Under the pieces are notes generated by a model. The model was not told the DNA's origin. It worked only from the letters and a program-made list of their open reading frames with translations, and made no database searches. DNA of 34,365 nt, taken from Ignavibacteria bacterium (GTDB lineage Bacteria > Bacteroidota > Ignavibacteria > Tepidaquicellales > Tepidaquicellaceae). Each line of letters begins with the position of its first letter. The stretch's first letter is position 1. The stretch spans positions 1 to 34,365 of the forward strand of contig JAFGII010000120.1 in the NCBI GenBank assembly GCA_016929695.1, given 5' to 3'. Shown one piece after another: positions 5,086 through 25,247 of this stretch. Both the position numbers and the translations under genes were made by a program.

Positions 5086-5167
5086 ACTCATCCGATGGAC
5101 TTGTTCACAGAATGAGTATATCTGTATCCGCATTAATCTGCTAAATCCGTATATTCCGCGTTCGAAT
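5086..5167. repeat. Dispersed CTCATCCGA hairpin plus 11-nt-phased tail, copy 1
   Basis: The sequence starts with a partly decayed hairpin (ACTCATCCGA ... GAATGAGT). A tail follows in which ATCYGY-type words recur about every 11 nt. It aligns almost base for base with 22887-22940, in another intergenic gap 17.8 kb away. It fills the gap upstream of the cytochrome operon. No function is known to me. Confidence 0.75.
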
Positions 5168-7956: not shown

Positions 7957-8076
7957 ATTTTTTTAATTATTTCTCAAATCCCCATTCACACGAAACAAAA
8001 TTTAAAATTCATAATTAATCTATTAGTTTTCAAATTCTGCTCAAAATGGCAAGAAAATTAATCAATATGCATTACT

Positions 8077-8172
8077 CATTTTTAACACTAAAGGCACAAA
8101 AATTTTTACGAAAAACACTAAAATATTTAAAAAAAACACTTCTTTGCGGTCTCTGTCTCTTTGCGCCTTGTG
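8077..8172. repeat. Dispersed intergenic repeat, copy 1
   Basis: The left end (CATTTTTAACACTAAAGGC and the ten or so following bases) is identical to 25131 onward. The remainder (AAACACTAAAAT, then a CTTTGCG-rich right end) follows the same order in both copies. The left half is built of ACTAAAG/GCACAAAAA words and the right half of CTTTGCG words, which are loosely complementary, so the whole resembles a decayed long hairpin. A 151-aa open frame through it is composed of repeat sequence and is not a believable protein. Confidence 0.7.
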
Positions 8173-8800: not shown

Positions 8801-10819
8801 ATGAAAAAATTAATTCTCACTGTTATTGCCCTTGCGGCAGTAATAAACCTGAGTTTCGCTCAGGATTACGAAAAAATGAGGGGTTCTGAAATTTGTTCAA
8901 TGAGGAAGTCAAAAATGCCAAAACCCGAAAAATACTTTCAGGATTCTCCGGGCTCACCGAGGCATTCTTTCGATGTCCTGAATTACAAACTCAATCTTGA
9001 TATTTACCATTGCTACTTCAGCCCGTATGCGAAGAATTTCAATGCATCGAATATTATAACATTCAGAGTAGATTCAACATTGAATAACATTAAACTAAAT
9101 GCTGTCAATACTTCAATGACAATAGATTCAATAAGATTATTGAGCAGCAGTTCACCGTTAACTTTTAACCATACATCGAATATTTTAACTATAAATTTGG
9201 ACAGGACGTATAACGTCGGAGAGGTTGTTAACGTTAAAATAAATTACAGACATTTAAATGTCAGTGACAACGCATTTTATGTAAGCAGTTCGGGTTATGT
9301 ATTTACGGATGCCGAACCAGAAGGTGCAAGAAAATGGTTTCCCTGCTGGGACAGACCTTCTGATAAAGCGACACTTGATTTAACTGTAAAAGTTCCGGTG
9401 TCCGTCAGACTGGGGTCTAACGGCAGATTAAATGATTCAACAATTGTAGGCGATTCGCTCTGGTATCACTGGGTAAGCCGTGACCCGATAGCAACTTATA
9501 TTATGGTTATGACATCGAAAATAGGATATGAAATAAATATTTCATACTGGCATTCAATTTCAAATCCGAATGACAGCATACCAATCAGATTATATCACAC
9601 TACAGGACAAAATATATCAAATGTAAGGAATGTAATATTACCAATGACGACATATTACTCACAGGCTTTCGGCGAGCATCCGTTTGAGAAAAACGGATTT
9701 GCATACGTTCCGAACAGTGCGGGATTTGCCTGGGGAGGAATGGAAAATCAGACACTGACGACTCTTAACAGTTGGGGTGAGAATCTGGCGGCACACGAAT
9801 ATGCGCATCAGTGGTTCGGCGATATGATAACCTGTGCTTCGTGGTCTAATTTGTGGATTAATGAAGGTTTCGCCACTTGGTCGGAATCATTCTGGATTGA
9901 AAGAACAGGCGGTTACTCGGCATATAAATCAATGATTAACAGCGATGCAAGCACATACCTTTCTCAGAATCCTGGCTGGGCTATTTCGGTGCCAACTTGG
10001 GATAGTGTTACGCCCAACTCGAATACTTTATTCAACTTCGCAATTACATATTGTAAAGCATCCTGCGTGCTTCACCTTTTAAGATACACACTCGGAGATT
10101 CATTATTCTTTGTAGGAATAAAAGCATACGCAACAGATACTGCTAACTTCAAATATAAAACTGCTACCATTAACGATTTCTTTACTAAAATGAGTACCGT
10201 AACGGGACAGGATTTATCGTGGTTCCCGGCTTCTTGGATTTACCAGCCGAATCACCCGCAGTATCAGAACGGGTATAACATTACAAATCTCGGAGGCGGT
10301 CAGTACCGCGTGAATTTCCTCGCCAAGCAGGTGCAGTCAAATCCGAGTTTTTTTCAGATACCGATTAACTTCAGAATATCATTTACTACAGGTTCTGACA
10401 CGACAATTAAGGTTATGAACACGACTAATAATCAGTTATTTACATATCATTTTTACCGTCAGCCGACCTCGGTCGTATTCGACCCGGGTAATGAAATCGT
10501 AATCAAGACCGCAACTCTTGTAGTTGGTATTGACGAGAACTCGACTGAAATTCCGGGAAAATTTGCATTGAGACAGAATTATCCGAATCCGTTCAATCCT
10601 ATTACAACGATTCAATACGATATCCCCGTAAATTCATATGTAAAAATCTCGGTTTATGACAATGCAGGAAAAGAAGTAAGTGTAATTTTGAATCAGTTTA
10701 TTAATGCAGGTAAATACACTACATCATTCAATGCATCTAAACTCGCATCCGGAATCTATTACTACAGACTTCAGGCAGGCAACTACACCGAAGTTAAAAA
10801 AATGACCTTATTAAAGTAA
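8801..10819 (+). CDS. Secreted M1-family zinc aminopeptidase with T9SS type A sorting domain
   Basis: Predicted to trim N-terminal residues from peptides outside the cell. The 672-aa protein has a Sec signal peptide (MKKLILTVIALAAVINLSFAQ). An M1 N-terminal beta domain follows, then the catalytic domain with the exopeptidase motif GGMEN (312-316). The zinc site is HEYAH with His332, catalytic Glu333, His336 and third ligand Glu355 in NLWINEGFATW. A beta-rich region follows, and the last ~85 residues form a type A C-terminal sorting domain (QNYPNPFNP, GKEV, GIYYYRL, KKMTLLK end). That signal sends the protein across the outer membrane by the type IX system, usually leaving it surface-anchored. 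It lacks the long C-terminal helical domain of cytosolic PepN, as is common for secreted bacterial M1 enzymes. It ends at a strong terminator, so it is monocistronic. Confidence 0.93.
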   Translation: MKKLILTVIALAAVINLSFAQDYEKMRGSEICSMRKSKMPKPEKYFQDSPGSPRHSFDVLNYKLNLDIYHCYFSPYAKNFNASNIITFRVDSTLNNIKLNAVNTSMTIDSIRLLSSSSPLTFNHTSNILTINLDRTYNVGEVVNVKINYRHLNVSDNAFYVSSSGYVFTDAEPEGARKWFPCWDRPSDKATLDLTVKVPVSVRLGSNGRLNDSTIVGDSLWYHWVSRDPIATYIMVMTSKIGYEINISYWHSISNPNDSIPIRLYHTTGQNISNVRNVILPMTTYYSQAFGEHPFEKNGFAYVPNSAGFAWGGMENQTLTTLNSWGENLAAHEYAHQWFGDMITCASWSNLWINEGFATWSESFWIERTGGYSAYKSMINSDASTYLSQNPGWAISVPTWDSVTPNSNTLFNFAITYCKASCVLHLLRYTLGDSLFFVGIKAYATDTANFKYKTATINDFFTKMSTVTGQDLSWFPASWIYQPNHPQYQNGYNITNLGGGQYRVNFLAKQVQSNPSFFQIPINFRISFTTGSDTTIKVMNTTNNQLFTYHFYRQPTSVVFDPGNEIVIKTATLVVGIDENSTEIPGKFALRQNYPNPFNPITTIQYDIPVNSYVKISVYDNAGKEVSVILNQFINAGKYTTSFNASKLASGIYYYRLQAGNYTEVKKMTLLK

Positions 10820-11348: not shown

Positions 11349-11732
11349 ATGTCAGAACAATTTCAAAATACTATAGATAAAGAAATTGTGACTGATGAAA
11401 TCCGGAAGGGATTGAATGATTTCAGATTATGGATGTAGCACAAACGTTACAGTGGAGCAACAATAAAAACTTACCTTTACGGAGCAAAAGGACAAAACAA
11501 ATTTTAACAATACAGCGAAAAAAGTTTGCAGGTAGTATTGAAACAATCTCTTGAAAAATCCGGAATTAAAAAACCTGTAACATTATATTGGTTAAGGCAT
11601 TCGTATGCTGCACATTTTCTTGTATCGGGTACTAATTTGCGGTACGTAAAAGAATTGCTAGAAAACAAAAACAGTAAAACAAAAGAGATTTATACACACG
11701 TAAGCACTAAAATTATTCAAAAAATCTTTTAA
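11349..11732 (+). pseudogene. Decayed tyrosine recombinase (integrase), two stops and a large internal deletion
   Basis: A single frame from ATG 11349 reads MSEQFQNTIDKEIV... then FRLWM, stop (TAG 11436-11438), HKRYSGATIKTYLYGAKGQNKF, a second in-frame stop (TAA), QYSEKSLQVVLKQ and on to 11732. The first part matches the N-terminal SAM-like (core-binding) domain. The second part jumps directly to the C-terminal end of the catalytic domain: LRHSYAAH with Arg and His, SGTNLRYVKELL, and IYTHVS with the nucleophile Tyr. The middle of the catalytic domain, with the first active Arg, is missing. The usual LGHKSS is ENKNS, so a catalytic His is lost too. About 128 codons remain of an expected 290-400. 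It looks XerD/phage-type, not IntI. It sits at the left border of the acquired sulfur block and may be the relic of its mobilising enzyme. Confidence 0.85.
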
Positions 11733-11781
11733 TGATTTATAAATGTTTTATAAATTGTAATTTTAATAATGTATTACATTT

Positions 11782-11821
11782 ATGGTACAAATACATTCCA
11801 AAATCAGGGGATTTGTACCAT
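11782..11821. repeat. Perfect 11-bp inverted repeat next to the integrase relic
   Basis: ATGGTACAAAT (11782-11792) and ATTTGTACCAT (11811-11821) are perfect inverted copies around an 18-nt spacer. They lie 50 nt after the integrase pseudogene and 205 nt before the SLC13 permease start. This could be a recombinase core site, an operator or a hairpin terminator with a short T tail. The rest of the 11733-12026 gap is AT-rich and shows nothing else. Confidence 0.6.
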
Positions 11822-12026
11822 TTTATGTTACATATAAACAAGTTACCAACAAGGCTAAAAAAAAAACAACGACAACGAAAATGACAGACAAAATGGTTAA
11901 AGAATGAAAAATGAAAACAAAATGATAAGGAAAGAAAAAAGATTTAGTTTTTTTCGATCCTCGAGAAAGAATAGCAGAAAGCACATATTATTTTAAAAAT
12001 GATTTTTTTGTACTCAACTTAAAATA

Positions 12027-13817
12027 ATGGAACCAAGTGTTATTATAGTTTTGCTAATACTTGCAGTAACAGTTATTATGCTGGTACTTGATGTCGTTCG
12101 AATTGATATTGTTGCTATTGGCTGTATGTTGGCGCTGGGCTGGACAGGAATATTAACTCCGCAGGATATGTTTTCCGGGTTCTCGAGCAATGCCGTAATT
12201 GCTATGCTGAGCGTGATGATTTTGGGTCGAGGCATTGCCCGGACGGGTATCATGGATGAATTTTCAAAATTTATTATCAAAAAGGCTGGTACCCGCAAGC
12301 GAAATCTGGTAGGCTTACTTTCCATTTCAACTGGTTTGCTGTCGGGTTTAATTCAAAATATTGGAGCGGCAGCACTTTTTCTGCCCGGCATTATGCAGGT
12401 TTCGCGCCGTACAAAGATTTCCCCATCATCGATTATTATGCCCATAGGGTTTGCTGCCATATTAGGGGGAACGCTTACCATGGTTGGCTCCGGACCGCTC
12501 ATACTGGTAAACGATTTATTAAGGAATGAAGGCCATGAAGCCTACAATCTGTTTAGTGTAACCCCTGTTGGTATTGTGCTTCTGTTTTCGGGCATCGGCT
12601 ACTTTTTGCTGTTCGGAAGCAAAGTTTTACCCAAAAAAGAGATTGGCGAAACAGGAAAATCCGAACAGGATAAACTGATAGAAAAACTGAATTTACCACA
12701 TAACATTAAATTGCTCTCCATTAAAACTGAGAGTTCCTTGATTGCTAAAACAACCGAAGAGGCTGGCTTGTGGAACATCTACAATGTTAACCTGCTGGGT
12801 GTCGGAAAAGGAAACGATGTGGTTTACGCCCCATGGCGTGAAACCAAATTTGAAGAGGGACAAACCCTTGCAATTTTGGGCTCTGCTGAGAATATAGAGC
12901 GGTTTTCCAAAGACTTTCAGCTTGACGACGTGTCTTCATCACGCTATTTCTCCGAAGATTTTAACCCTAATGTTAGCGGTTTTGCCGAGATAATTATTCC
13001 ACCTGATTCTGAACTCACTGGTAAAAGTATAAGAGAGTATTCTTTAAGAAAACGATATGCTGTTGAGCCGGTAATTTTATTTAATAAGGGAGAAAGAGTA
13101 GATGGTGACTTTTCTGATGTGGAAATACGCCCGGGCGATAGTCTAATAGTTTACGGTCGGTGGGACAAAATAAAGGATTTGAAAGAAAGCAATCATTTTG
13201 TTGTGCTCACAGGGTTTGATTTGGATAAAAAAGAGAAATCGAAAACCTGGCCGGCCATAGCTTGCTTTGCTTTTGCCATTACCCTGGCAATGGTTGGCTT
13301 TCCAATTTCAATGGCATTTTTAACCGGTGCCCTTTTTATGGTTTTTACCCGTGTTTTGAATATTGGAGAGGCCTATGATGCCATTGAATGGAAAGTAGTG
13401 TTTTTGCTGGCTGGATTAATACCCTTGGGTGTGGCTATGCAAAAAACAGGTACCGCCATGTTCCTTGCCGAATCCATTATGAGCGTGGTTATTGATTTGC
13501 ACCCTGTTTTCCTTGTGATTATGGTTGGGATTTTATCAACCGTTTTTTCACTATTCATGTCAAATGTAGGTGCCATTGTGGTGCTGGCCCCGCTGGTAAT
13601 GAGCATAGCCGGAATTGCCGGCATTGACCCTCGGCCACTTGTGCTCATGGCAGCCGTTTGTGCCGCAAACTCATTTATTTTGCCCACCCACCAGGTGAAT
13701 GCCTTCCTTATGTCGTCGGGCGGGTATCGCAATACTGATTACATAAAAGCCGGAAGTGGAATTACCATTCTTTTTCTGACCATTACTGTTTTTATTTTCT
13801 ATTTTTTCATAATTTAA
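12027..13817 (+). CDS. SLC13/DASS-family anion permease with two RCK_C (TrkA-C) domains
   Basis: Predicted inner-membrane importer or exporter of a small anion. The 596-aa protein has about five N-terminal helices (1-205) containing the re-entrant motif IQNIGAAALFLPG and TMVGSGPLILVND. A cytosolic part with two RCK_C domains follows (about 225-300, ending EEGQTLAILG, and about 320-390, ending RPGDSLIVYGRW). Six further helices include the second motif MSNVGAIVVLAPLVM and PTHQVNAFLMSSGGY. This split architecture is typical of bacterial DASS permeases often annotated as sulfate/sodium-sulfur transporters. The substrate is not readable. Neighbouring persulfide dioxygenase and YeeE/YedE genes suggest an oxidised sulfur anion such as sulfite or thiosulfate (inference). 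Codons are richer in CTG, GCC and GGC than in flanking genes, consistent with transfer. It heads a run of six same-strand genes. Confidence 0.88.
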   Translation: MEPSVIIVLLILAVTVIMLVLDVVRIDIVAIGCMLALGWTGILTPQDMFSGFSSNAVIAMLSVMILGRGIARTGIMDEFSKFIIKKAGTRKRNLVGLLSISTGLLSGLIQNIGAAALFLPGIMQVSRRTKISPSSIIMPIGFAAILGGTLTMVGSGPLILVNDLLRNEGHEAYNLFSVTPVGIVLLFSGIGYFLLFGSKVLPKKEIGETGKSEQDKLIEKLNLPHNIKLLSIKTESSLIAKTTEEAGLWNIYNVNLLGVGKGNDVVYAPWRETKFEEGQTLAILGSAENIERFSKDFQLDDVSSSRYFSEDFNPNVSGFAEIIIPPDSELTGKSIREYSLRKRYAVEPVILFNKGERVDGDFSDVEIRPGDSLIVYGRWDKIKDLKESNHFVVLTGFDLDKKEKSKTWPAIACFAFAITLAMVGFPISMAFLTGALFMVFTRVLNIGEAYDAIEWKVVFLLAGLIPLGVAMQKTGTAMFLAESIMSVVIDLHPVFLVIMVGILSTVFSLFMSNVGAIVVLAPLVMSIAGIAGIDPRPLVLMAAVCAANSFILPTHQVNAFLMSSGGYRNTDYIKAGSGITILFLTITVFIFYFFII

Positions 13818-13846
13818 TAATATAAAATCACTTAAAAGGAAATGCT

Positions 13847-15295
13847 ATGCTAATCAAACATTATTTCATCAACAAAATTGCGCACAGTTCATACATTCTG
13901 GCCGGTTCAGATGTTTCTGCCGTTATTGACCCGCAACGCGATACCGATGTTTACATTAAAGAGGCTCGTGCGCTGGGAGTAGAAATTACCCATATCCTGC
14001 AAACCCATCTGCATGCCGATTTTGTTTCGGGGCATATGGACCTGGCGGAAAAAACAGGAGCCAAAATTTACGTTGCCAAATCTGCAAAATGCACGTTCGA
14101 CCATGTGGCGGTTAGCGAAGGCGATACCATCGAGATTGAAAAAATTGTTATCAAAGTGCTCGAAACTCCCGGGCACACGCCCGAACATCTCTGTTATGTT
14201 GTAATAGATACAACCCGCGGAGAAGATCCTGTATGCGCCTTTGTGGGCGACACCCTGTTTGTGGGCGACGTGGGCCGTCCGGATCTTTTCCCCGATATGG
14301 CTAAAGAACTTGCCGATAAGCTTTATCACAGCTTGCACAATAAAATTCTTAAACTGCCCGATTTTTGCGAAGTGTTGCCAGCACACGGCGCCGGCTCTCT
14401 GTGCGGACGGGCAATGGGTGCCAAGTGGCGTTCTACCATCGGTTATGAGAGAAAATACAATGCTGCCTTGCAAATAAAAGACAAAGCCGAATTCATCAAG
14501 TCGCTTACCGAGGATATGCCCCCTGCCCCAGACCATTTCAGCCGTTGCAGCGATATCAACCGTAAAGGGCCTGCTCGTATTTCGAAGCTACCCAAAATGA
14601 AGGAGCTGAACGCGGAAGCCTTCAAAAAAATGATTGAAAAAGAGAATGTTGCTGTTGTTGATACACGTAGCTACCTTGCCTTTGGCAGCCAGCACATTCC
14701 CGGTTCCTGGAGCCTTGACTTCAACGGTAACCTGCCCACATTTGCAGGATGGGTGCTGCCTCTTGACAAAGACCTGCTGGTAGTTTCAGATAGTTTTCAG
14801 GAAGCAGAAAAAACCAATGTGTGGCTCAGGCGTGTTGGGCAGGACCGTATTGTTGGTTATCTTGATGGCGGTATGGCCGGCTGGGCAGTGAAAGGATACA
14901 TAACAAACCATATCACCCAGATCTCCGCCGAAGACTTGCATGAAAAAGTCATAGGTTCATCCAAATTTGTTTTGCTGGATGTAAGAGCAACTCAGGAATA
15001 TGAAGGTGGCCATATAGAGGGAGCTATTAACATCCCTGTGGCTGACCTGCGTCAACGGCACACAGAATTGAATAAGGAGAATGAAATTATTCTTATCTGT
15101 AGTTCGGGTAACCGCAGTAGTCTTGGTGCAAGTATCCTGAGCCAACATGGTTTTAAAAATCTGCATAATGTTGCCGGTGGAATTACCGGATACAGCGCAG
15201 CTGGTTATACAAAACGCTGCACCGTTTGTCAAAATCCACATGGCTCAAGGTTTTATTCAAAAGTGGAAGAAGTTAAAACTCATTTTAAACAATAA
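13847..15295 (+). CDS. cstB: CstB-like persulfide dioxygenase-rhodanese fusion
   Basis: Predicted to oxidise low-molecular-weight persulfides and transfer sulfur, yielding thiosulfate, in the cytoplasm. In the 482-aa protein, residues 1-245 form an MBL-fold persulfide dioxygenase domain. Its THLHADFVSGH motif gives His54, His56, Asp58 and His63; TPGHTPEHLCYVV and GDTLFVGDVGRPDLFPD supply further metal ligands. Residues about 265-365 form a rhodanese-like domain without a catalytic Cys (VSDSFQEAEKT where the loop should be). Residues about 370-470 form a second rhodanese with active loop CSSGNRSS and Cys418. The order MBL, inactive rhodanese, active rhodanese is that of Staphylococcus CstB, whose active Cys is in a similar position. 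AAAGGA lies upstream of the ATG. It is followed closely by YeeE/YedE genes, as in other sulfide-detoxification clusters. Confidence 0.9.
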   Translation: MLIKHYFINKIAHSSYILAGSDVSAVIDPQRDTDVYIKEARALGVEITHILQTHLHADFVSGHMDLAEKTGAKIYVAKSAKCTFDHVAVSEGDTIEIEKIVIKVLETPGHTPEHLCYVVIDTTRGEDPVCAFVGDTLFVGDVGRPDLFPDMAKELADKLYHSLHNKILKLPDFCEVLPAHGAGSLCGRAMGAKWRSTIGYERKYNAALQIKDKAEFIKSLTEDMPPAPDHFSRCSDINRKGPARISKLPKMKELNAEAFKKMIEKENVAVVDTRSYLAFGSQHIPGSWSLDFNGNLPTFAGWVLPLDKDLLVVSDSFQEAEKTNVWLRRVGQDRIVGYLDGGMAGWAVKGYITNHITQISAEDLHEKVIGSSKFVLLDVRATQEYEGGHIEGAINIPVADLRQRHTELNKENEIILICSSGNRSSLGASILSQHGFKNLHNVAGGITGYSAAGYTKRCTVCQNPHGSRFYSKVEEVKTHFKQ

Positions 15296-15298
15296 AAT

Positions 15299-15832
15299 AT
15301 GGAAACAATTGCATCAGTTTTTACAGCAACCAACTGGTCACCCTATGCTATAGGTATTGGCATAGGGCTTTTGAGCTGGTTGAGTTTTTTGATATCGGGC
15401 AAACCCATTGCCACATCCACTACCTTTGCCCGTGCAGGGGGAATGATTGAAGAGGTGATTACAGGAGATAAAGCCAGACAAAGACCCTACTATAAAAAGA
15501 TTAAACTCCAGATAAACTGGCAGTGGATGCTGGTTGTGGGTGTGGTTATCGGGTCATTTCTTTCAGCAATCATATCAGGCGATTTTCAGGTTGGGGTGTG
15601 GGTTCCATCACTCTGGACTTCAGCCTTTGGCAATAGTGCCGTTCTTCGAGTGCTTGTGGCTGTTGCAGGAGGCATTATCCTGGGCTTTGGTGCCCGCTTT
15701 GCCGGCGGTTGCACCAGCGGGCACGGCATTAGCGGCACACTGCAACTCGCAGTTTCAAGCTGGATTTCGGCCATCTTCTTTTTTATAGGAGGTATTATAA
15801 CTGCTCATCTTATTTTTAACGTATTTATTTAA
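15299..15832 (+). CDS. YeeE/YedE-family sulfur transporter, first half (one of two subunits)
   Basis: This 177-aa membrane protein with about four to five helices starts only 3 nt after the CstB-like stop. The hallmark GARFAGGCTSGHGISG carries the conserved Cys that in YeeE/TsuA-type transporters relays thiosulfate through S-H...S hydrogen bonds. The first half also has ISGKPIATSTTF, a YedE-like entry motif. Full-length YeeE proteins are about twice this size. Here the function is split between this gene and 16588-17163, as in the PmpA/PmpB-type pairs that accompany CstB or ETHE1 genes. Predicted role: import or export of thiosulfate or a related sulfane-sulfur species. Substrate is inference. 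Confidence 0.88.
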   Translation: METIASVFTATNWSPYAIGIGIGLLSWLSFLISGKPIATSTTFARAGGMIEEVITGDKARQRPYYKKIKLQINWQWMLVVGVVIGSFLSAIISGDFQVGVWVPSLWTSAFGNSAVLRVLVAVAGGIILGFGARFAGGCTSGHGISGTLQLAVSSWISAIFFFIGGIITAHLIFNVFI

Positions 15833-15845
15833 CAATAATCAAACG

Positions 15846-16577
15846 ATGAAAAAGATATTTTTAGCAATAATATTTTCTGGGCTACTCGCCCAAACTTATG
15901 GACAGTTTAGTTTGGATGTATCAGGCGGATTTGCTGCTCAAAGCTATAATAGGGTTCAAATTCCAAGCGAGCAGGGAACTGCTTTTGATTTGTATAAGGA
16001 TTTTAAAATTCAGGGACCTGCTTTGTACTATACCTTAAAACTTGGCTATTGTTTTAAGGAAAAAAATCATCTGTTTTTATTGTATGCACCTCTAAGTGTG
16101 AATTATGAGGGTGCTGCACCTTTTGATATCAGGTATCAGAACACAACTTTTCTTCAGGGTCAAAATATAGACGCGTACTATAAGTTTAACAGCTATAGAT
16201 TAACCTACCGGAGAGATGTGTACAGCTCTGAAAAATGGCTTTTGGGTGTTGGTTTAACTGCCAAAATCCGGGATGCTGAAATTCGTTTAACATCTGGCGA
16301 TGTCAGTGATTATAAAGATGATTTAGGCTTTGTACCGTTGCTCAATTTATACGCTGAATACAATTTCAACAATTGGTCGGCATTTTTTGAAGGTGACGGT
16401 TTGGCCGGTGGACCCGGAAGAGCTTTTGACCTGTATCTGGGAGGGAAAATACCAATTACTGAGCATCTGAAAATAAAGGCAGCATACAGAATGCTCGAAG
16501 GGGGAGCAGATGTAAGTTCTGTTTACAACTTTACTATGCTGCACTTTGCTAATTTAGGTTTGATTATAACACTTTAA
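15846..16577 (+). CDS. Probable outer-membrane beta-barrel protein
   Basis: This 243-aa protein has a Sec signal peptide (MKKIFLAIIFSGLLAQTYGQ, cleavage near YGQF). The mature chain has alternating hydrophobic and polar strands, many aromatic residues and Gly-Asp turns (YYTLKLGYCF, WLLGVGLTAKI, FDLYLGGKIP), and ends in a hydrophobic strand. This is consistent with an 8- to 12-strand outer-membrane barrel. I do not recognise a named family. It lies between the two YeeE/YedE half-genes with gaps of 13 and 10 nt, so it is in their operon. A role as an outer-membrane partner or sensor for the same sulfur solute is possible, by context only. Confidence 0.7.
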   Translation: MKKIFLAIIFSGLLAQTYGQFSLDVSGGFAAQSYNRVQIPSEQGTAFDLYKDFKIQGPALYYTLKLGYCFKEKNHLFLLYAPLSVNYEGAAPFDIRYQNTTFLQGQNIDAYYKFNSYRLTYRRDVYSSEKWLLGVGLTAKIRDAEIRLTSGDVSDYKDDLGFVPLLNLYAEYNFNNWSAFFEGDGLAGGPGRAFDLYLGGKIPITEHLKIKAAYRMLEGGADVSSVYNFTMLHFANLGLIITL

Positions 16578-16587
16578 AAAGAATACT

Positions 16588-17163
16588 ATGAACAAAGAAA
16601 ATATTGAGGAAAACAAAGGAGAAATCACGGATAAAAGACCCTTATTCTTTGGTTTGGGCTTTGGTATCCTGTTCGGTTTTCTGCTGCACAAAGGCGGTGC
16701 AACCAAATACGATGTGATTGTAGGTCAGTTACTTCTCACCGATTTTACGGTTGTAAAAATTATGCTTTCGGCAGTTGCCACAGGTATGATTGGTATTTAT
16801 TTTATGAAATCGCTGGGCTGGATTAAGCTTTCGCTCAAGAGCGGCTCGGTGGGTATGAATGTGATAGGTGCCTTGATTTTTGGTGTTGGCTTTGCTGTAC
16901 TTGGCTATTGTCCTGGTACCATTGCCGGGGCTATTGGCAACGGCTATTTGGATGCAATAACCGGCGGACTGGTTGGTATACTTTTAGGCACCTGGATTTT
17001 TGCTATAATGTATCCAAAACTAAAGGATGGAATCCTGAAAATAGGCGATTTTGGAGATATCACCATACCTCGCCTTTTAAAGGTAAACGACTGGGTGGTG
17101 GTTGTACCAGTGGTTGCCCTGATTGTGCTCTTGCTGGTTTGGATTGAGCAAGCAGGTTTTTAA
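16588..17163 (+). CDS. YeeE/YedE-family (DUF6691-type) transporter, second half
   Basis: This 191-aa membrane protein has a polar N-terminus (MNKENIEENKGEITDKRP) and about five helices. The key motif GYCPGTIAGAIGNGYLDA contains a conserved Cys in a glycine-rich membrane loop, the counterpart of the GGCTSGHG motif in the partner at 15299-15832. Together the two supply the duplicated halves of a full YeeE-like thiosulfate channel. The separation of the halves by an outer-membrane protein gene is unusual; in most clusters I know they are adjacent. Same strand and operon as CstB. Confidence 0.87.
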   Translation: MNKENIEENKGEITDKRPLFFGLGFGILFGFLLHKGGATKYDVIVGQLLLTDFTVVKIMLSAVATGMIGIYFMKSLGWIKLSLKSGSVGMNVIGALIFGVGFAVLGYCPGTIAGAIGNGYLDAITGGLVGILLGTWIFAIMYPKLKDGILKIGDFGDITIPRLLKVNDWVVVVPVVALIVLLLVWIEQAGF

Positions 17164-17177
17164 AAATACATCTCATT

Positions 17178-17525
17178 ATGGAAGTCAACCTGAAAGTTAT
17201 TTTTGAGTACTTGTACATTGTTATTGGCAGTATTGGCGTAGCCATTATTATGTGGGGAGTGGTTTTAACCGTATTTAGGTTATTAAAGCTGGAGTTCAGC
17301 AGGTTCAAACATAAGTCAATATACCGTGAGCGGGAATCGGTACGCCATCAATTTGCTTCGTACCTGCTGCTGGCACTGGAGTTTTTGATTGCAGCTGATA
17401 TTATTGCTACGGTAATACACCCAACATTCGAGGAAATTGCCATACTGGCTAGTATCGTAGTCATCAGAACAGTGATAAGCTATTTTTTGGAAAAAGAGAT
17501 TGAGAAGTTCAATGCTAATGAATAG
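17178..17525 (+). CDS. DUF1622 family membrane protein
   Basis: This 115-aa protein has three hydrophobic helices (about 8-32, 55-75, 80-102). Sequence features match DUF1622: a first helix with a conserved Gly, a cytosolic RERESVRHQFASYLLLALEFLIAADII block and a terminal IVVIRTVISYFLEKEIE. The family has no known function but is widespread as a small inner-membrane protein with a conserved R-x-x-L/F-x-x-x-L...E-x-x-x-A-D-I motif. It is the last gene of the sulfur block, 14 nt after the second YeeE half, and so probably in the same transcript. Confidence 0.88.
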   Translation: MEVNLKVIFEYLYIVIGSIGVAIIMWGVVLTVFRLLKLEFSRFKHKSIYRERESVRHQFASYLLLALEFLIAADIIATVIHPTFEEIAILASIVVIRTVISYFLEKEIEKFNANE

Positions 17526-17738
17526 GCAAAAGTTGTAATTAGGAAAATTTTATAACTGAAGCACAGTTGATAAACTGAGAATATTGAAACAGAATTGCGA
17601 GTCAAAAAGTGTAAGCTTTCTTCAGAACGAGTTAAACAAAATTTTTAAGGTAAAAATAAGTTGACAGAATTTATGAAAATATTTCATACTATTAACAGGG
17701 GAGAAAAACACTCAGTTGGAAAAGGCGATATATTTTAT

Positions 17739-17847
17739 TGCCGATTCAGTGCGTGTTTCAGCGTTTCTTCATCTAATAAACTTTCGTGTAACTTGACAGA
17801 TTTGTGCTTCGAAATCGGCAACAAAAACATACCACCAGCCGTTGTAT
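17739..17847 (+). repeat. Putative attC-like site 0, divergent
   Basis: TTGCCGATT (17739-17747) pairs with AATCGGCAA (17813-17821) as the base of a long hairpin. The region ends CCAGCCGTTGTATGC, whose GTTGTAT (17841-17847) is the same terminal box as in the attC-like site at 18725-18731. The sequence TTGTATGCAATTT after the cut point is nearly the reverse complement of the end of the cassette that follows. Its own R'' box is not clear, so it may be a remnant or another attC class. The 17526-17905 gap holds no believable gene. Confidence 0.55.
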
Positions 17848-17905
17848 GCAATTTAAATCGTCCATCTTTGTGAAGTTTTGCAATAAAATCTGAAATGAAA
17901 ATATT

Positions 17906-18571
17906 ATGACTTCAAATTTTGAAATTGGCAATAAAAAGAGGTATAAGGTTAGTAATTATAGAACATACAATGACAAAGTATTGGATACATATGATAATTG
18001 TATCTGGATTCCTATTTTTAAACTTAAAGATATAGACCGAAGTGTTGTTCAGGAATTACGGGATGATATAGATAAAATTCACATTTTAGATGTTGGGTGT
18101 GCAACAGGAAGACTTCTTGGAACCCTGTCTTTGGCTGGAGCAAAAAATTTATACGGTACTGATATTGCCCCGAATATTTTGAAGAAAGTCAAGGAGAAAG
18201 CAAAAAAACAAAATATAGATATTGACCTTAAAGTTTCTGATGCCGAAATTAATATTCCTTGGGCTGATAATAGATTTGATGTAATTACATTGACCGGAGT
18301 TTATCATCATTTTATTAACCCTGAAAAAGCATTAAGGGAAATGTACAGAGTTCTAAAAAAAAATGGGCGACTTATTATTATTGAGCCACGGTTTCCAATG
18401 GTAATTCGTCAGGTTCTCAATTTATACCTGAAAATTTTTATGCATGAAGGAGACCACAGATTCTTTGCTCATGAGAAAATAACTGAAGTGTCACAATCAG
18501 TAGGTTTCAGAGTGGATATTAAACCCGAAAATATCGCAAGGTTTATGTTAAAAACAGTATATCGAAAATGA
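17906..18571 (+). CDS. Class I SAM-dependent methyltransferase (Methyltransf_11 type)
   Basis: This 221-aa soluble protein has the Rossmann SAM-binding core: motif I LDVGCATGR at about 61-69, the acidic residue ending strand 2 in YGTDIAP, SDAEINIPWADNRFDVI around motif II/III, and a post-core VLKKNGRLIIIEPRFP typical of the Methyltransf_11/25 clan. The YHHF segment after LTGV is common in small-molecule C-, N- or O-methyltransferases of the UbiE/arsenite-like superfamily. The substrate cannot be read. It is the only gene of cassette 1, beginning 64 nt inside it. Its AAA/ATA-rich codon use differs from the sulfur block. A lone methyltransferase is a typical integron cassette cargo. Confidence 0.85.
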   Translation: MTSNFEIGNKKRYKVSNYRTYNDKVLDTYDNCIWIPIFKLKDIDRSVVQELRDDIDKIHILDVGCATGRLLGTLSLAGAKNLYGTDIAPNILKKVKEKAKKQNIDIDLKVSDAEINIPWADNRFDVITLTGVYHHFINPEKALREMYRVLKKNGRLIIIEPRFPMVIRQVLNLYLKIFMHEGDHRFFAHEKITEVSQSVGFRVDIKPENIARFMLKTVYRK

Positions 18572-18599
18572 AAAACCATAAAATAAATTGAAAAACTGA

Positions 18600-18731
18600 A
18601 TACAACATTTTGTATAAATAATGACAGAGAAAGTGTTAAATATCAATGTCTGTAGCCCGCTCAAACTTTATCACGGTTTGACAGGTAAGTACCACGCAAT
18701 CTGCTACTACACATAAAATTTACCGTTGTAT
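18600..18731 (+). repeat. attC-like recombination site 1 (132 nt)
   Basis: The site is bounded by R''-like ATACAAC (18600-18606) and R'-like GTTGTAT (18725-18731), which are perfect complements. A central TCAAAC...GTTTGA hairpin (18661-18666, 18676-18681) is flanked by further imperfect pairing. It aligns without a single gap to 20500-20631, with about 79% identity by my hand count. Length is close to the 120-130 nt of Vibrio cholerae attC repeats. It separates the methyltransferase gene from the aminotransferase gene. Confidence 0.7.
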
Positions 18732-18781
18732 CTCATTATATCTCAGACAACATAAATAAGAATTCTTTAATTAAATACAAG

Positions 18782-19996
18782 ATGATGACACTTGATGAAA
18801 AATTCAAAGCTCTTGAGGCAGACAACACACCTGGTCAGGAAGTTAGACAAGATATGGGATATCTGAATCCCTTAATGCGTGGCGAGAGGCTTGATGGCAT
18901 TCTTGTTGATTTCTCACATGGTGATGTAGACGCTTTTCCCCCAACACCTGGCTCTGATGTGGTTTGGAAAGAAGGCTTTGATAAAGGTGCTAGTCAGGCG
19001 TATACTGAGTATCGAGGATTGGCTGAAATAAGAAATAGATTGGCGGAGCGTCTCAGTAAATTTACCGAACGACCTATTGCAGCAGATAGCGAATTGATTA
19101 TAACCCCCGGAACTCAAGGTGCTTTATTTTTGGCATTAGGAGTTACAGTTGCTGCAGGCATGAAAGTCGCTGTAGTTGAACCAGACTATTTTGCCAACCG
19201 CAAACTTGTCAAGTTCTTCGATGGTGAAGTTGTACCTATTCCCCTTAATTACATTAGTTCTCTATCTGAACATGGTCTAGAACTTAATAGACTTAAAGAA
19301 GCATTTAAAAATGGGACAAAGGTTTTAGTCTTTTCTACACCCAATAATCCAACAGGGCTTGTATATTCAACAAAGACTATAACTGCGGTTGCAGCTCTCG
19401 CAATAAAATATGATGTTACTTTAATAGTGGATCAATTATATTCCAGAATGCTATACAGCGGAGAAAATTATACTCATCTTCGTTCCCTGGATACTCTCCC
19501 GGAAAATTTAATCACTATTATGGGTCCATCAAAGACCGAATCTCTCAGTGGATTTCGTCTTGGTGTTGCATTTGGCACACCCCAATTAATTGATAGAATG
19601 GAACGTCTTCAAGCAATCGTTTCTCTACGAGCAGCTGGTTACAATCAGGCGGTTCTTGATACCTGGTTTCAGGAACCTTCAGGCTGGTTGGAAAAACGAA
19701 TTACTGAACACGAAGCTATTCGTGATGAGTTGTTGAAAATTTTCAGAGCTACAAATTTGAAGACAGCAACCCCACAAGCCGGGAGTTATCTTTTCCCGCA
19801 ACTGCCACCTCTTAGCGTTGACTTACTAACTTTTATACGATTGCTTCGTATTCAGGCCAACTTGATAGTTACACCAGGTACCGAATTTGGTCCAACTTTC
19901 ACTGATAGCATACGGCTAAACTTTTCTCAGGATCGCATAGCGGCTATTGCAGCTGTAAAGAGAATCGTAAAAATGATAGAAATTTACAAATTATGA
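18782..19996 (+). CDS. PLP-dependent class I/II aminotransferase
   Basis: Predicted to transfer amino groups between an amino acid and a keto acid in the cytoplasm. The 404-aa protein shows fold-type I features: TPGTQGALFLAL for the phosphate cup, a substrate-side aromatic in EPDYFANRK, STPNNPTG with the pyridine-ring-stacking Asn, an IVDQLYSRMLY strand with the Asp that binds the PLP ring nitrogen, and the Schiff-base Lys251 in MGPSKTESLSGFRLG. SIRLNFS gives the carboxylate-binding Arg. A second in-frame ATG lies one codon later, so the start is either 18782 or 18785. Substrate unknown. It overlaps the RidA-like gene by 4 nt (ATGA), a sign of translational coupling; both are cargo of cassette 2. 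Confidence 0.9.
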   Translation: MMTLDEKFKALEADNTPGQEVRQDMGYLNPLMRGERLDGILVDFSHGDVDAFPPTPGSDVVWKEGFDKGASQAYTEYRGLAEIRNRLAERLSKFTERPIAADSELIITPGTQGALFLALGVTVAAGMKVAVVEPDYFANRKLVKFFDGEVVPIPLNYISSLSEHGLELNRLKEAFKNGTKVLVFSTPNNPTGLVYSTKTITAVAALAIKYDVTLIVDQLYSRMLYSGENYTHLRSLDTLPENLITIMGPSKTESLSGFRLGVAFGTPQLIDRMERLQAIVSLRAAGYNQAVLDTWFQEPSGWLEKRITEHEAIRDELLKIFRATNLKTATPQAGSYLFPQLPPLSVDLLTFIRLLRIQANLIVTPGTEFGPTFTDSIRLNFSQDRIAAIAAVKRIVKMIEIYKL

Positions 19997-20421
19997 GTAA
20001 TAGCAAAGAACAACCCGTTCCGCAAGGAAAATACTTATCCGCCATACGACACGCAGATTTGATTTACGTCTCGGGTATGACACCTCGCAAAAACGGGCAA
20101 CTTATTTATTCCGGAAAAATCAAAACTAAGGAGCCTGTAGAATCTAATAAAGATGCTGTCCGTTTGGCGGCTTTGAATGCATTAACAGCGGCACAGTCTT
20201 GCTTGAGTGATGGCGAGAGCATATCAATAATCCTTCAACTTAATGTCTTTCTTAACGCCGAGGAGGATTTTACTGCTCATGCCAAAGTTGCAGATTACGC
20301 ATCTGAACTATTAATTGAATATTTAGGTTCTAATTGTATTGGAAGCCGTGCTGCAATTGGTGTTGCTTCATTGCCTTCGAATGCCCCGATTGAAATAGCG
20401 ATTATTGGCAAAGTAGTTTAA
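19993..20421 (+). CDS. RidA/YjgF-family enamine/imine deaminase-like protein
   Basis: This 142-aa protein matches the RidA fold: N-terminal PVPQGKYLSAIRHADLIYVSGMTP, middle NALTAAQSCLSDGESI, and C-terminal GSRAAIGVASLPSNAPIEI. The Arg in that last segment sits where RidA uses Arg105 to bind the carboxylate of 2-aminoacrylate. RidA enzymes hydrolyse reactive enamine or imine intermediates released by PLP enzymes. Its 4-nt overlap with a PLP-dependent aminotransferase gene makes a direct partnership likely (inference). It is somewhat longer than E. coli RidA (128 aa) and belongs to one of the diverse Rid subfamilies. It is followed 79 nt later by the attC-like site. Confidence 0.88.
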   Translation: MSNSKEQPVPQGKYLSAIRHADLIYVSGMTPRKNGQLIYSGKIKTKEPVESNKDAVRLAALNALTAAQSCLSDGESISIILQLNVFLNAEEDFTAHAKVADYASELLIEYLGSNCIGSRAAIGVASLPSNAPIEIAIIGKVV

Positions 20422-20499
20422 TCTTATGAAAGTTCGATATACATTCTTAACAAAAAGCACATATCTTATTGAGAGAGCTGAAAAATAAAGAATAACGAG

Positions 20500-20631
20500 A
20501 TACAACATTTTATATAAGTAATGCCCGGAAAATTGTTAAATATCGAGGTTGATAGCCCGCTCAAACTTCATCAAGGTTTGACAGATGAGTGCCGCATAAT
20601 CTGCCACTGCTCATACAATTTACCGTTAGGC
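20500..20631 (+). repeat. attC-like recombination site 2 (132 nt), array end
   Basis: It starts ATACAAC (20500-20506) and ends GTTAGGC (20625-20631), a canonical GTTRRRY core. The gapless alignment to 18600-18731 (offset 1900, equal to the cassette length) includes the TCAAACTT...AAGGTTTGA central hairpin and the outer TATAAGTAATG/TGCTCATA pairing. Because the last six bases derive from downstream sequence, this R' does not match its R'', exactly as expected at the last attC of an array. Bases after it (TTAGGCGAAAATGCCT) contain a small palindrome but no further attC is visible. Confidence 0.72.
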
Positions 20632-20703
20632 GAAAATGCCTGATTTAAAGCAAATAAATAAATTCAAATAATTAAAAATTTAATAGTTAGGAGGCAGAAA
20701 AAA

Positions 20704-21264
20704 ATGCAGGTTTTGGAAATTATAAGAAGTTATACATGGATTTTTGTGCTCTTGTTTTCACTTTTAGTTATTTTACTTACATATACTAAAATGAAGGGTA
20801 CAAAACTTTTCAGAATCGGATTTGGATTATTCCGCGCTGTTATCTTTTTTGCTATCTTTTATAATCCTCTGATTGAACAGCCCCGTCTATATGACAAATT
20901 CATTTTACCTGTCAGCGGCTTAGTATTATTGGTTTCAGGTATTGTTCTTAATATTACCGGTACAAGAGAACTTGTGAAAACAAAACTTGGCGGAGTTAAG
21001 GGCATTCCCGATAAAATTATTACCGCAGGAGTATATAATATTATAAGACACCCGGTAAATTTAGGATTTATTTTTATATTCTGCGGATGGTATTTTATGT
21101 GGTCCGGTATTTATTCGCTTTATTTTCTTCCTGTTCTTGTAATCATCTTCATTTTCGTTTCATTCTACGAAGAAAGGAATCTTATAAAAGTATTTGGAGA
21201 TGAATATAGAAATTATAAGAAAAATACATGTATGTTCTTCCCAAAATTAAAAAGAAAAAAATAA
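20704..21264 (+). CDS. Isoprenylcysteine carboxyl methyltransferase / phospholipid methyltransferase-like membrane protein
   Basis: This 186-aa integral membrane protein has about five helices. The C-terminal half carries the ICMT/PEMT signature: GVYNIIRHPVNLGFIFIFCGW, then YEERNLIKVFGDEYRNYKKN, in which RHP, the Glu pair and EY...Y bind SAM. The family methylates small membrane or thiol substrates or lipids; the bacterial substrate is unknown. A canonical AGGAGG (20689-20694) lies 9 nt before the ATG. Its host-like codon use and the absence of a matching R'' box after it suggest it is resident chromosomal sequence just beyond the cassette array, although a decayed third cassette is possible. 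Confidence 0.85.
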   Translation: MQVLEIIRSYTWIFVLLFSLLVILLTYTKMKGTKLFRIGFGLFRAVIFFAIFYNPLIEQPRLYDKFILPVSGLVLLVSGIVLNITGTRELVKTKLGGVKGIPDKIITAGVYNIIRHPVNLGFIFIFCGWYFMWSGIYSLYFLPVLVIIFIFVSFYEERNLIKVFGDEYRNYKKNTCMFFPKLKRKK

Positions 21265-22886: not shown

Positions 22887-22940
22887 ACTCGTCCGACGAA
22901 CTTGTTCATCGGATGAGTATATCTGTATCCGCTATAATCC
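22887..22940. repeat. Dispersed CTCATCCGA hairpin plus tail, copy 2
   Basis: ACTCGTCCGA (22887-22896) pairs with TCGGATGAGT (22909-22918) through one G-T wobble. The loop CGAACTTGTTCA and the tail ATATCTGTATCCGC repeat those of the copy at 5086. This copy is the better-preserved hairpin. Confidence 0.78.
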
Positions 22941-23004
22941 GCTTAATTCATGTTTTACGCGCCTTATAGTTTATTTACAACTTTTCTATGACTAACTATT
23001 CATC

Positions 23005-25034: not shown

Positions 25035-25130
25035 TTTACATTTTCTCCTTTTATAATATAATAAAAGATTTTAAAATATGTAACATACAGGAACAGGACA
25101 ATTTTTAAATAAAAATTAAGAATAAAAAAT

Positions 25131-25247
25131 CATTTTTAACACTAAAGGCACAAAAATTTTCACTAAAAACACTAAAATTTTTAAATATTATATTTCTTTG
25201 CCTTTTTGCGTGAAATATGTAACGGAATTTTTAACCGTAAAGAGAGA
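25131..25247. repeat. Dispersed intergenic repeat, copy 2
   Basis: It shares its first thirty or so bases (CATTTTTAACACTAAAGGC onward) with 8077 and continues with AAAAACACTAAAATTT, then CTTTGCCTTTTTGCGTG, then an AACCGTAAAGAG word near 25233-25244. It lies in the gap between the divergent CARF and glucan phosphorylase genes. No coding content. Confidence 0.7.

Follow-up and report, generated by a model that had tools for sequence, protein, structure and literature searches.

How gene cassettes came to be assembled in a genome in which no classical integron integrase can be recognised is the question raised by positions 1 to 34,365 of contig JAFGII010000120.1 (assembly GCA_016929695.1, Ignavibacteria bacterium), a 34,365-nt stretch referred to here as the window. 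An initial annotation, made from the letters alone, proposed an integrase-less integron cassette array (CALIN) with 132-nt attC sites in an Ignavibacteria-type host. The host type and the cassette array were borne out, but the array is not simply integrase-less. The region is very probably what remains of a chromosomal integron, of a type that spans the Bacteroidota and as yet has no name, which would combine attC sites of about 132 nt with a tyrosine recombinase (integrase) lacking the I2 helix of IntI.

In the window an integrase pseudogene, an attI-like end (11842), a probable cassette 0, a degraded attC, cassette 1, an attC, cassette 2, an attC and a PEMT gene follow one another, all co-oriented on the + strand. 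The two 132-nt sites first described, site 1 (18600-18731; left box ATACAAC, right box GTTGTAT) and site 2 (20500-20631; left box ATACAAC, extended GAGATACAAC, right box GTTAGGC), do lie 3' of same-orientation genes and align free of gaps, over 147 nt at 78% identity and over 128 nt at 81% (E=4e-29); there is no further close copy of either in the 2.78-Mb genome. The chimeric junctions claimed at G^TTRRRY are likewise present. Cassette 2 (18726-20625) starts G^TTGTATCTC at 18725 and is complementary at 10/10 positions to its own left box, the right box GTTGTATCTC at 18725 being the exact reverse complement of the left box GAGATACAAC that ends at 20506, with the next right box, GTTAGGC, unrelated. 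Cassette 1 (17842-18725), which starts G^TTGTATGCA at 17841, matches its own left box, TGAATACAAC, at 9/10. A third, degraded 132-nt attC (site 0, 17716-17847), with its left box AAC mutated to AAA, its right box GTTGTAT at 17841, an arm duplex of -16.6 kcal/mol and a longest helix of 14 bp, was found (41.4 bits, E=4.7e-7) by R1, a covariance model built from ten sites, all from the class Ignavibacteria. The window thus holds at least two same-orientation cassettes, each closed by an attC and bounded at G^TTRRRY.

The same arrangement recurs in relatives. R1 sites occur in 61/294 genomes of the class, often as several same-strand copies per contig, and are found in other genera with differing boxes and between different neighbour genes, as the initial annotation had suggested checking; at about 132 nt in relatives, and with GTTRRRY/RYYYAAC boxes, they also form the attC family of Vibrio cholerae repeat size that it had predicted. 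Among 39 consecutive site pairs, taken from arrays of relatives and from the window array, the left box matches the right box of the previous site at 5/6 positions or better in 16 (15 of these at 6/6), compared with a shuffle expectation of 1.6 (maximum 8 in 5000 shuffles), and matches the right box of its own site in 3. Such box-level chimerism is the signature that cassettes circularising and inserting at G^TTRRRY would leave. At L138 (G194:C2), GTTCAGCAAGATTCG stands after five of the six attC sites found, so that several cassettes there start alike and mismatch their own left boxes. A near-repeat, ATACAACATATTGTTTAA, at two contig ends (L013, L015) was considered as an attC and rejected, being one palindrome at a contig break.

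The integrase remnant lies 6 kb upstream of the array first described and on the same strand (11349-11742, +). It comprises an N-terminal piece, MSEQFQ...LWM*HKRYSGATIKTYL, an internal deletion and a C-terminal piece, ...VTLYWLRHSYAAHFLVSGTNLRYVKELLE...YTHVS, with a frameshift before SFNDL*; its C terminus aligns with the KSPFDDL* of intact relatives. In a tree it groups with the I2-less integrases of loci L203, L210, L214, L218, L219 and L220 (support 100/100 for the seven and 99/95 for the inner six), all of which have attI on the 3' side. It is followed by an attI-like region (11743-11848, +) that aligns with the post-stop region of intact relatives (...ATATAAA..AGTTRRR...) and ends in the R box GTTACCA (11842-11848); in the relatives attI adjoins the integrase gene with a GTTRRRY box, of which GTTACCA is a degenerate form. 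The window does contain three attC and no IntI, but, since the decayed recombinase and the attI-like end stand on the same strand, it is better described as a dead integron than as an integrase-less array. With stops, a deletion and a frameshift in its integrase, and with site 0 lacking AAC, it is an inactive relic; with no intact integrase gene and with mismatches in the attC stems, the array is now fixed.

The available evidence is that intact recombinases of this kind are linked to such arrays. At 14/40 recombinase loci a right box close to the gene returns, as an exact 10-mer, in the left box of a downstream site (1/40 in the control), with 11 of these matches on the 3' side and 3 on the 5' side of the gene. 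In named genomes, including Flavobacterium, Pedobacter, Kaistella, Cyclobacteriaceae, Ignavibacteria and others, the attI R box is the exact 10-nt reverse complement of the left box of the first attC at 32/62 loci (control 1/62), and its distance from the stop codon is in most cases a constant 92-107 nt; 18 further contigs, beyond these 62, end within 450 nt after the recombinase gene. When R1 was applied to 56 recombinase loci, all 39 distinct matches fell downstream on the correct strand, with none in ~10 kb upstream. The I2-less recombinase is present in 31/61 R1-bearing genomes and in 39/233 of the others (p=1.5e-7), compared with p=0.009 for the co-occurrence of true IntI with R1 sites. 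In the subclades of L105, L101, L187, L190 and L221 the integrase has its attI on the 5' side, with the array running divergently from the gene as in class 1 integrons; attI has therefore changed sides during evolution of the family. The Chryseobacterium SNU WT5 plasmid (L321) carries, in a cassette array behind an I2-less integrase, four near-identical elements (TTTCCCAAC GGCC...GGCC GTT...; at 10174, 12269, 14650 and 17719) with integron-like boxes, the first being an almost gene-free mini-cassette at attI.

It is unlikely, by contrast, that the window is an ordinary CALIN, i.e. that its sites are attC of a classical, I2-containing IntI acting in trans or since lost, with the I2-less recombinase incidental. 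A true IntI above the curated cut-off does occur in 52/294 genomes of the class and, as the blaVEB-1 cassette demonstrates, sites of this type can be moved by IntI1, albeit inefficiently in the case of the veb1 attC (PMC3518468). However, no IntI exceeds the cut-off in the window's own genome or in sampled genomes of its family; 5/6 IntI neighbourhoods, over ~20 kb, have no R1-type site; the attC of IntI type differ in length and stem; and in Flavobacterium, Pedobacter and others the attI junction adjoins the I2-less gene. Classical IntI was accordingly rejected as the partner of the window-type attC after a search of the window's own genome and of 294 class genomes. Near one intact IntI (G153), pieces of a classical IntI gene are repeated (L137:13109-13321 and 17655-17885).

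The recombinase genes beside R1 sites encode proteins of ~290-345 residues. That of L105 is matched by NF040815 (XerA_Arch, 'site-specific tyrosine recombinase/integron integrase') at 226 bits, falls under the IntI cut-off, and has a TIGR02249 match that splits after position 181 (181|238). Most IntI of the class have a 31-residue stretch, corresponding to the I2/patch III region, that the 42 recombinases in the same alignment lack (<30% filling those columns), and IntI4 (2a3v) aligns in two pieces around this insert. Modelled with AlphaFold (pLDDT 82.7), the L219 protein shows no helix but a loop at the I2 position, with helices 237-250 and 268-281 on either side; XerA and IntI4 head the Foldseek ranking for this model, although a pTM of 0.56 makes the domain placement uncertain. 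The additional domain of IntI-family integrases is thus absent from the intact relatives, the window copy being a pseudogene. In an integron-like subgroup described previously the insertion is 'not fully conserved' (PMC8138268), and the open-access literature, searched without most subscription papers and preprints, yielded no earlier account of I2-less integrons. The subclade of L203, L210, L214, L218, L219 and L220, with the window remnant, has an extra N-terminal stretch of ~65 residues (KRIAV.FE...ARWS.TLK.WHLPDT), without a Pfam match and absent from the L105 and L221 subclades.

The structure of the sites bears on what the enzyme would recognise. Alignment of relatives reveals a bottom-strand stem of 18 bp, TTGTATGAGTAGTGGCAG/CTGCCATTACTTATACAA, inside the AAC/GTT boxes, in which 90% of cells pair, compared with 29-50% when the arms are slid by 1-3 columns, and 9 cells have changed on both sides; conserved G-T pairs occur on the bottom strand only, with 30 consensus pairs on that strand and 20 on the top. 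A bottom-strand hairpin bearing the R and L boxes is therefore seen by comparison of relatives and not by folding the window sites alone, which singly fold no better than shuffles (z -0.46 for 18600-18731 and -1.23 for 20500-20631). The canonical hairpin with extrahelical bases was not recovered; the bottom strand does not form the extrahelical-base hairpin needed by IntI, an outcome that had been named as telling against the array but that is here attributed to the enzyme being a different one. Beside I2-less integrases, the first-cassette attC mostly measure 130-136 nt and their stems run unbroken for up to 20 bp, whereas the attC adjoining IntI range from 60 to 221 nt. At least two asymmetric loops, the mark of extrahelical bases in the L box, are present in 1/28 of the former and 7/8 of the IntI type of the same class (p=7e-6); in the subclade of L199, L202, L206 and L215 the attC fall in between, having single loops. 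Since the extrahelical bases are docked by I2 in the canonical system (PMC7790495), joint loss of I2 and of these bases is coherent, and the absence of the one probably corresponds to the absence of the other.

These features also argue against the possibility, which we consider very unlikely, that the I2-less recombinase is Xer- or Cre-like and acts on double-stranded sites, with the long palindrome a by-product and the cassettes comparable to dif modules. Its closest solved relatives by sequence are indeed archaeal XerA/XerC-like proteins (4a8e, 5hxy), and Xer proteins recombine double-stranded dif; but the complementary boxes are ~118 nt apart and meet only if one strand folds, the paired positions covary, with the bottom strand pairing better than the top in 51 of the 55 sites with firm arms, and left and right boxes co-vary cassette by cassette. 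Simple duplication of a 132-nt repeat together with its neighbour genes, without site-specific recombination, is scarcely credible, for although the window's genome has only two close copies, the site lies between different genes in many genera and shows a box-level chimerism that copying cannot produce.

The junctions, array geometry, linkage to I2-less integrases, missing insert and site anatomy are established from sequence. Several points nevertheless weigh against a decayed I2-less integron. Recombination was not observed. Of the I2-less loci followed by sufficient sequence, about half lack an exact 10-mer junction, a few of the 32 junction matches are off the usual attI position and may be due to chance, and the sixth IntI neighbourhood (L097) has a weak R1-type site (E~1e-7) 6.4 kb away. 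The poor folding of the single window sites fits decay, but would equally fit hairpins being irrelevant; the sample of IntI-type attC is small (8), and the right ends of the compared attC were picked by best pairing. In the tree Xer rows form long branches inside the I2-less group, which bears on the age of the I2-less state, and cassette 0 depends on a 7/10 match.

The mechanism envisaged for the intact relatives is as follows. The I2-less integrase, related to archaeal XerA and to IntI, would recognise an attC of ~132 nt folded from the bottom DNA strand, and would insert gene cassettes, in circular form, at an attI that lies ~100 nt past the integrase's own stop codon or, in other subclades, upstream of its start. 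Cutting would occur between G and TT of GTTRRRY, and a cassette would therefore carry its own left box and borrow the right box of the next. We infer that the I2-less enzyme itself catalyses recombination and that its substrate is single-stranded.

The cargo initially assigned, a methyltransferase and an aminotransferase-RidA pair, is supported by profile searches. Cassette 1 carries, with its attC, a class I S-adenosylmethionine-dependent methyltransferase (17906-18571; Methyltransf_11, E=2.7e-25), and cassette 2 a pyridoxal phosphate-dependent aminotransferase of PRK06207 type (18782-19996; NF004854, 630 bits) and a Rid-family protein (19993-20421), again with its attC. Cassette 0 (11843-17841, about 6 kb) is probably a real cassette, though more weakly supported than cassettes 1 and 2, its start, TTACCAACA, and its end at site 0, AGTTGGAAAA, being reverse complements at 7/10. 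By Pfam it holds sulfur and transport genes: a CitMHS-family transporter (12027-13817), a metallo-beta-lactamase-fold/rhodanese protein (13847-15295), two Sulf_transp genes (15299-15832 and 16588-17163) flanking a protein without assignment (15846-16577), and a DUF1622 gene (17178-17525), all on the + strand. Beyond site 2, the start of a cassette 3 or the 3' flank (20626-21264, +) encodes a PEMT-family methyltransferase (20704-21264; PF04191); no attC was found 3' of this gene, and GCCTAAC is absent from the + strand of the window. An Rfam scan of the window returned only a partial tRNA, and an empty-site search in relatives through the flanking genes failed, the right-flank tetratricopeptide repeat gene having no usable orthologue and the left-flank peptidase gene being multi-copy. 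The window also contains two repeats, one of 72 nt whose copies lie 17 kb from each other (8076-8147 and 25130-25201; 89% identical) and one of 75 nt (5086-5160 and 22887-22961; 80% identical).

The lineage appears to have left traces among captured resistance genes. In a plasmid search, Klebsiella pC39-334kb was found to carry the terminal part of an I2-less integrase ending KSPFDDL, ~80 nt of attI-like sequence, GTTAGCGG and then blaVEB-3, while in most other plasmids similarity to this stretch begins at query position 117-128, i.e. at the cassette start. The blaVEB-1 attC, a working cassette site in a class 1 integron (AP021942), matches R1 (73.4 bits, E=1.6e-16) over its whole length, terminal part included. 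According to Aubert et al. (PMC3518468), this 133-bp veb1 attC has a single extrahelical base and a long terminal structure and recombines poorly with IntI1. Riemerella, also of the Bacteroidota, has captured aph(3')-IVb together with an attC-like tail of 140 bp, with neither homology in the flanks nor a recognised mobile element (PMC13148043). Both cases fit the I2-less lineage, which the relevant passages of these two papers do not propose.

It is reasonably probable, more broadly, that the Bacteroidota harbour a second widespread integron lineage, with single-stranded attC of ~132 nt and neither I2 nor paired extrahelical bases, so that I2 would be dispensable; that it supplied blaVEB to class 1 integrons; and that it may explain the Riemerella capture (PMC13148043) and may underlie rAID (recombinase-associated acquired interbacterial defence) clusters. 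The I2 helix has been held necessary for cassette capture and found in no other protein, and recombination between single-stranded and double-stranded sites has been held unique to IntI (PMC7790495). A large I2-less family with attI and cassette arrays would make the origin of integrons directly testable, and would offer a natural comparison for the control of strand choice and second-strand cleavage. As integron surveys seek integrases with the IntI-specific domain, the results suggest that an integrase has been overlooked in some of the Bacteroidota arrays classed as CALIN. They also point to a specific lineage as the source of the blaVEB cassette, which is important in the clinic, and of its odd, inefficient attC.

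Among known systems, XerA and XerH are single recombinases that act on dif in double-stranded DNA and are not known to be linked to cassette arrays; they (5hxy, 4a8e, 5jk0) are among the nearest solved sequences and folds and share the lack of an I2 helix. The rAID clusters of Bacteroidales, the assembly mechanism of which has been called open (PMC12247911), share the layout of a tyrosine recombinase with short genes behind it, all in one orientation and separated by a conserved motif. Their motif is a much shorter hairpin and their cargo consists of immunity genes, whereas the window carries a methyltransferase, an aminotransferase and a Rid protein in place of type VI secretion system (T6SS) immunity genes. 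On a Parabacteroides distasonis plasmid of rAID layout (OY725747; L323:5716-12810), a recombinase 48% identical to the I2-less family over residues 75-344, in one piece, precedes co-oriented T6SS-immunity and SMI1 genes separated by a short repeated hairpin motif (TAACAAAGCG...CGCTTAACCATTA), which R1 does not match; rAID clusters may be short-attC relatives of the I2-less system. The blaVEB cassette resembles the window family in its 133-nt, R1-matching attC and, for blaVEB-3, in adjoining a truncated I2-less integrase and attI, and differs in being carried now by class 1 integrons, in its one extrahelical base and in its inefficiency with IntI1 (PMC3518468). With CALIN, as defined by IntegronFinder (PMC9024848), the window shares an attC cluster without recognisable IntI, but has upstream a decayed partner integrase and attI-like end, and its intact relatives an integrase of another type. 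With IntI integrons (class 1, the Vibrio superintegron and the IntI of Bacteroidota/Ignavibacteria; TIGR02249) it shares attI, co-oriented cassette arrays, RYYYAAC/GTTRRRY boxes, the cut at G^TTRRRY and the bottom-strand hairpin; by contrast, the integrase here lacks the I2/patch III insert, and the attC is near-constant at ~132 nt, with a long, mostly unbroken stem lacking paired extrahelical bases. Because that insert proved to be missing and those bases mostly so, the system is set apart from both the IntI family and plain CALIN, even though its working would be that of an integron.

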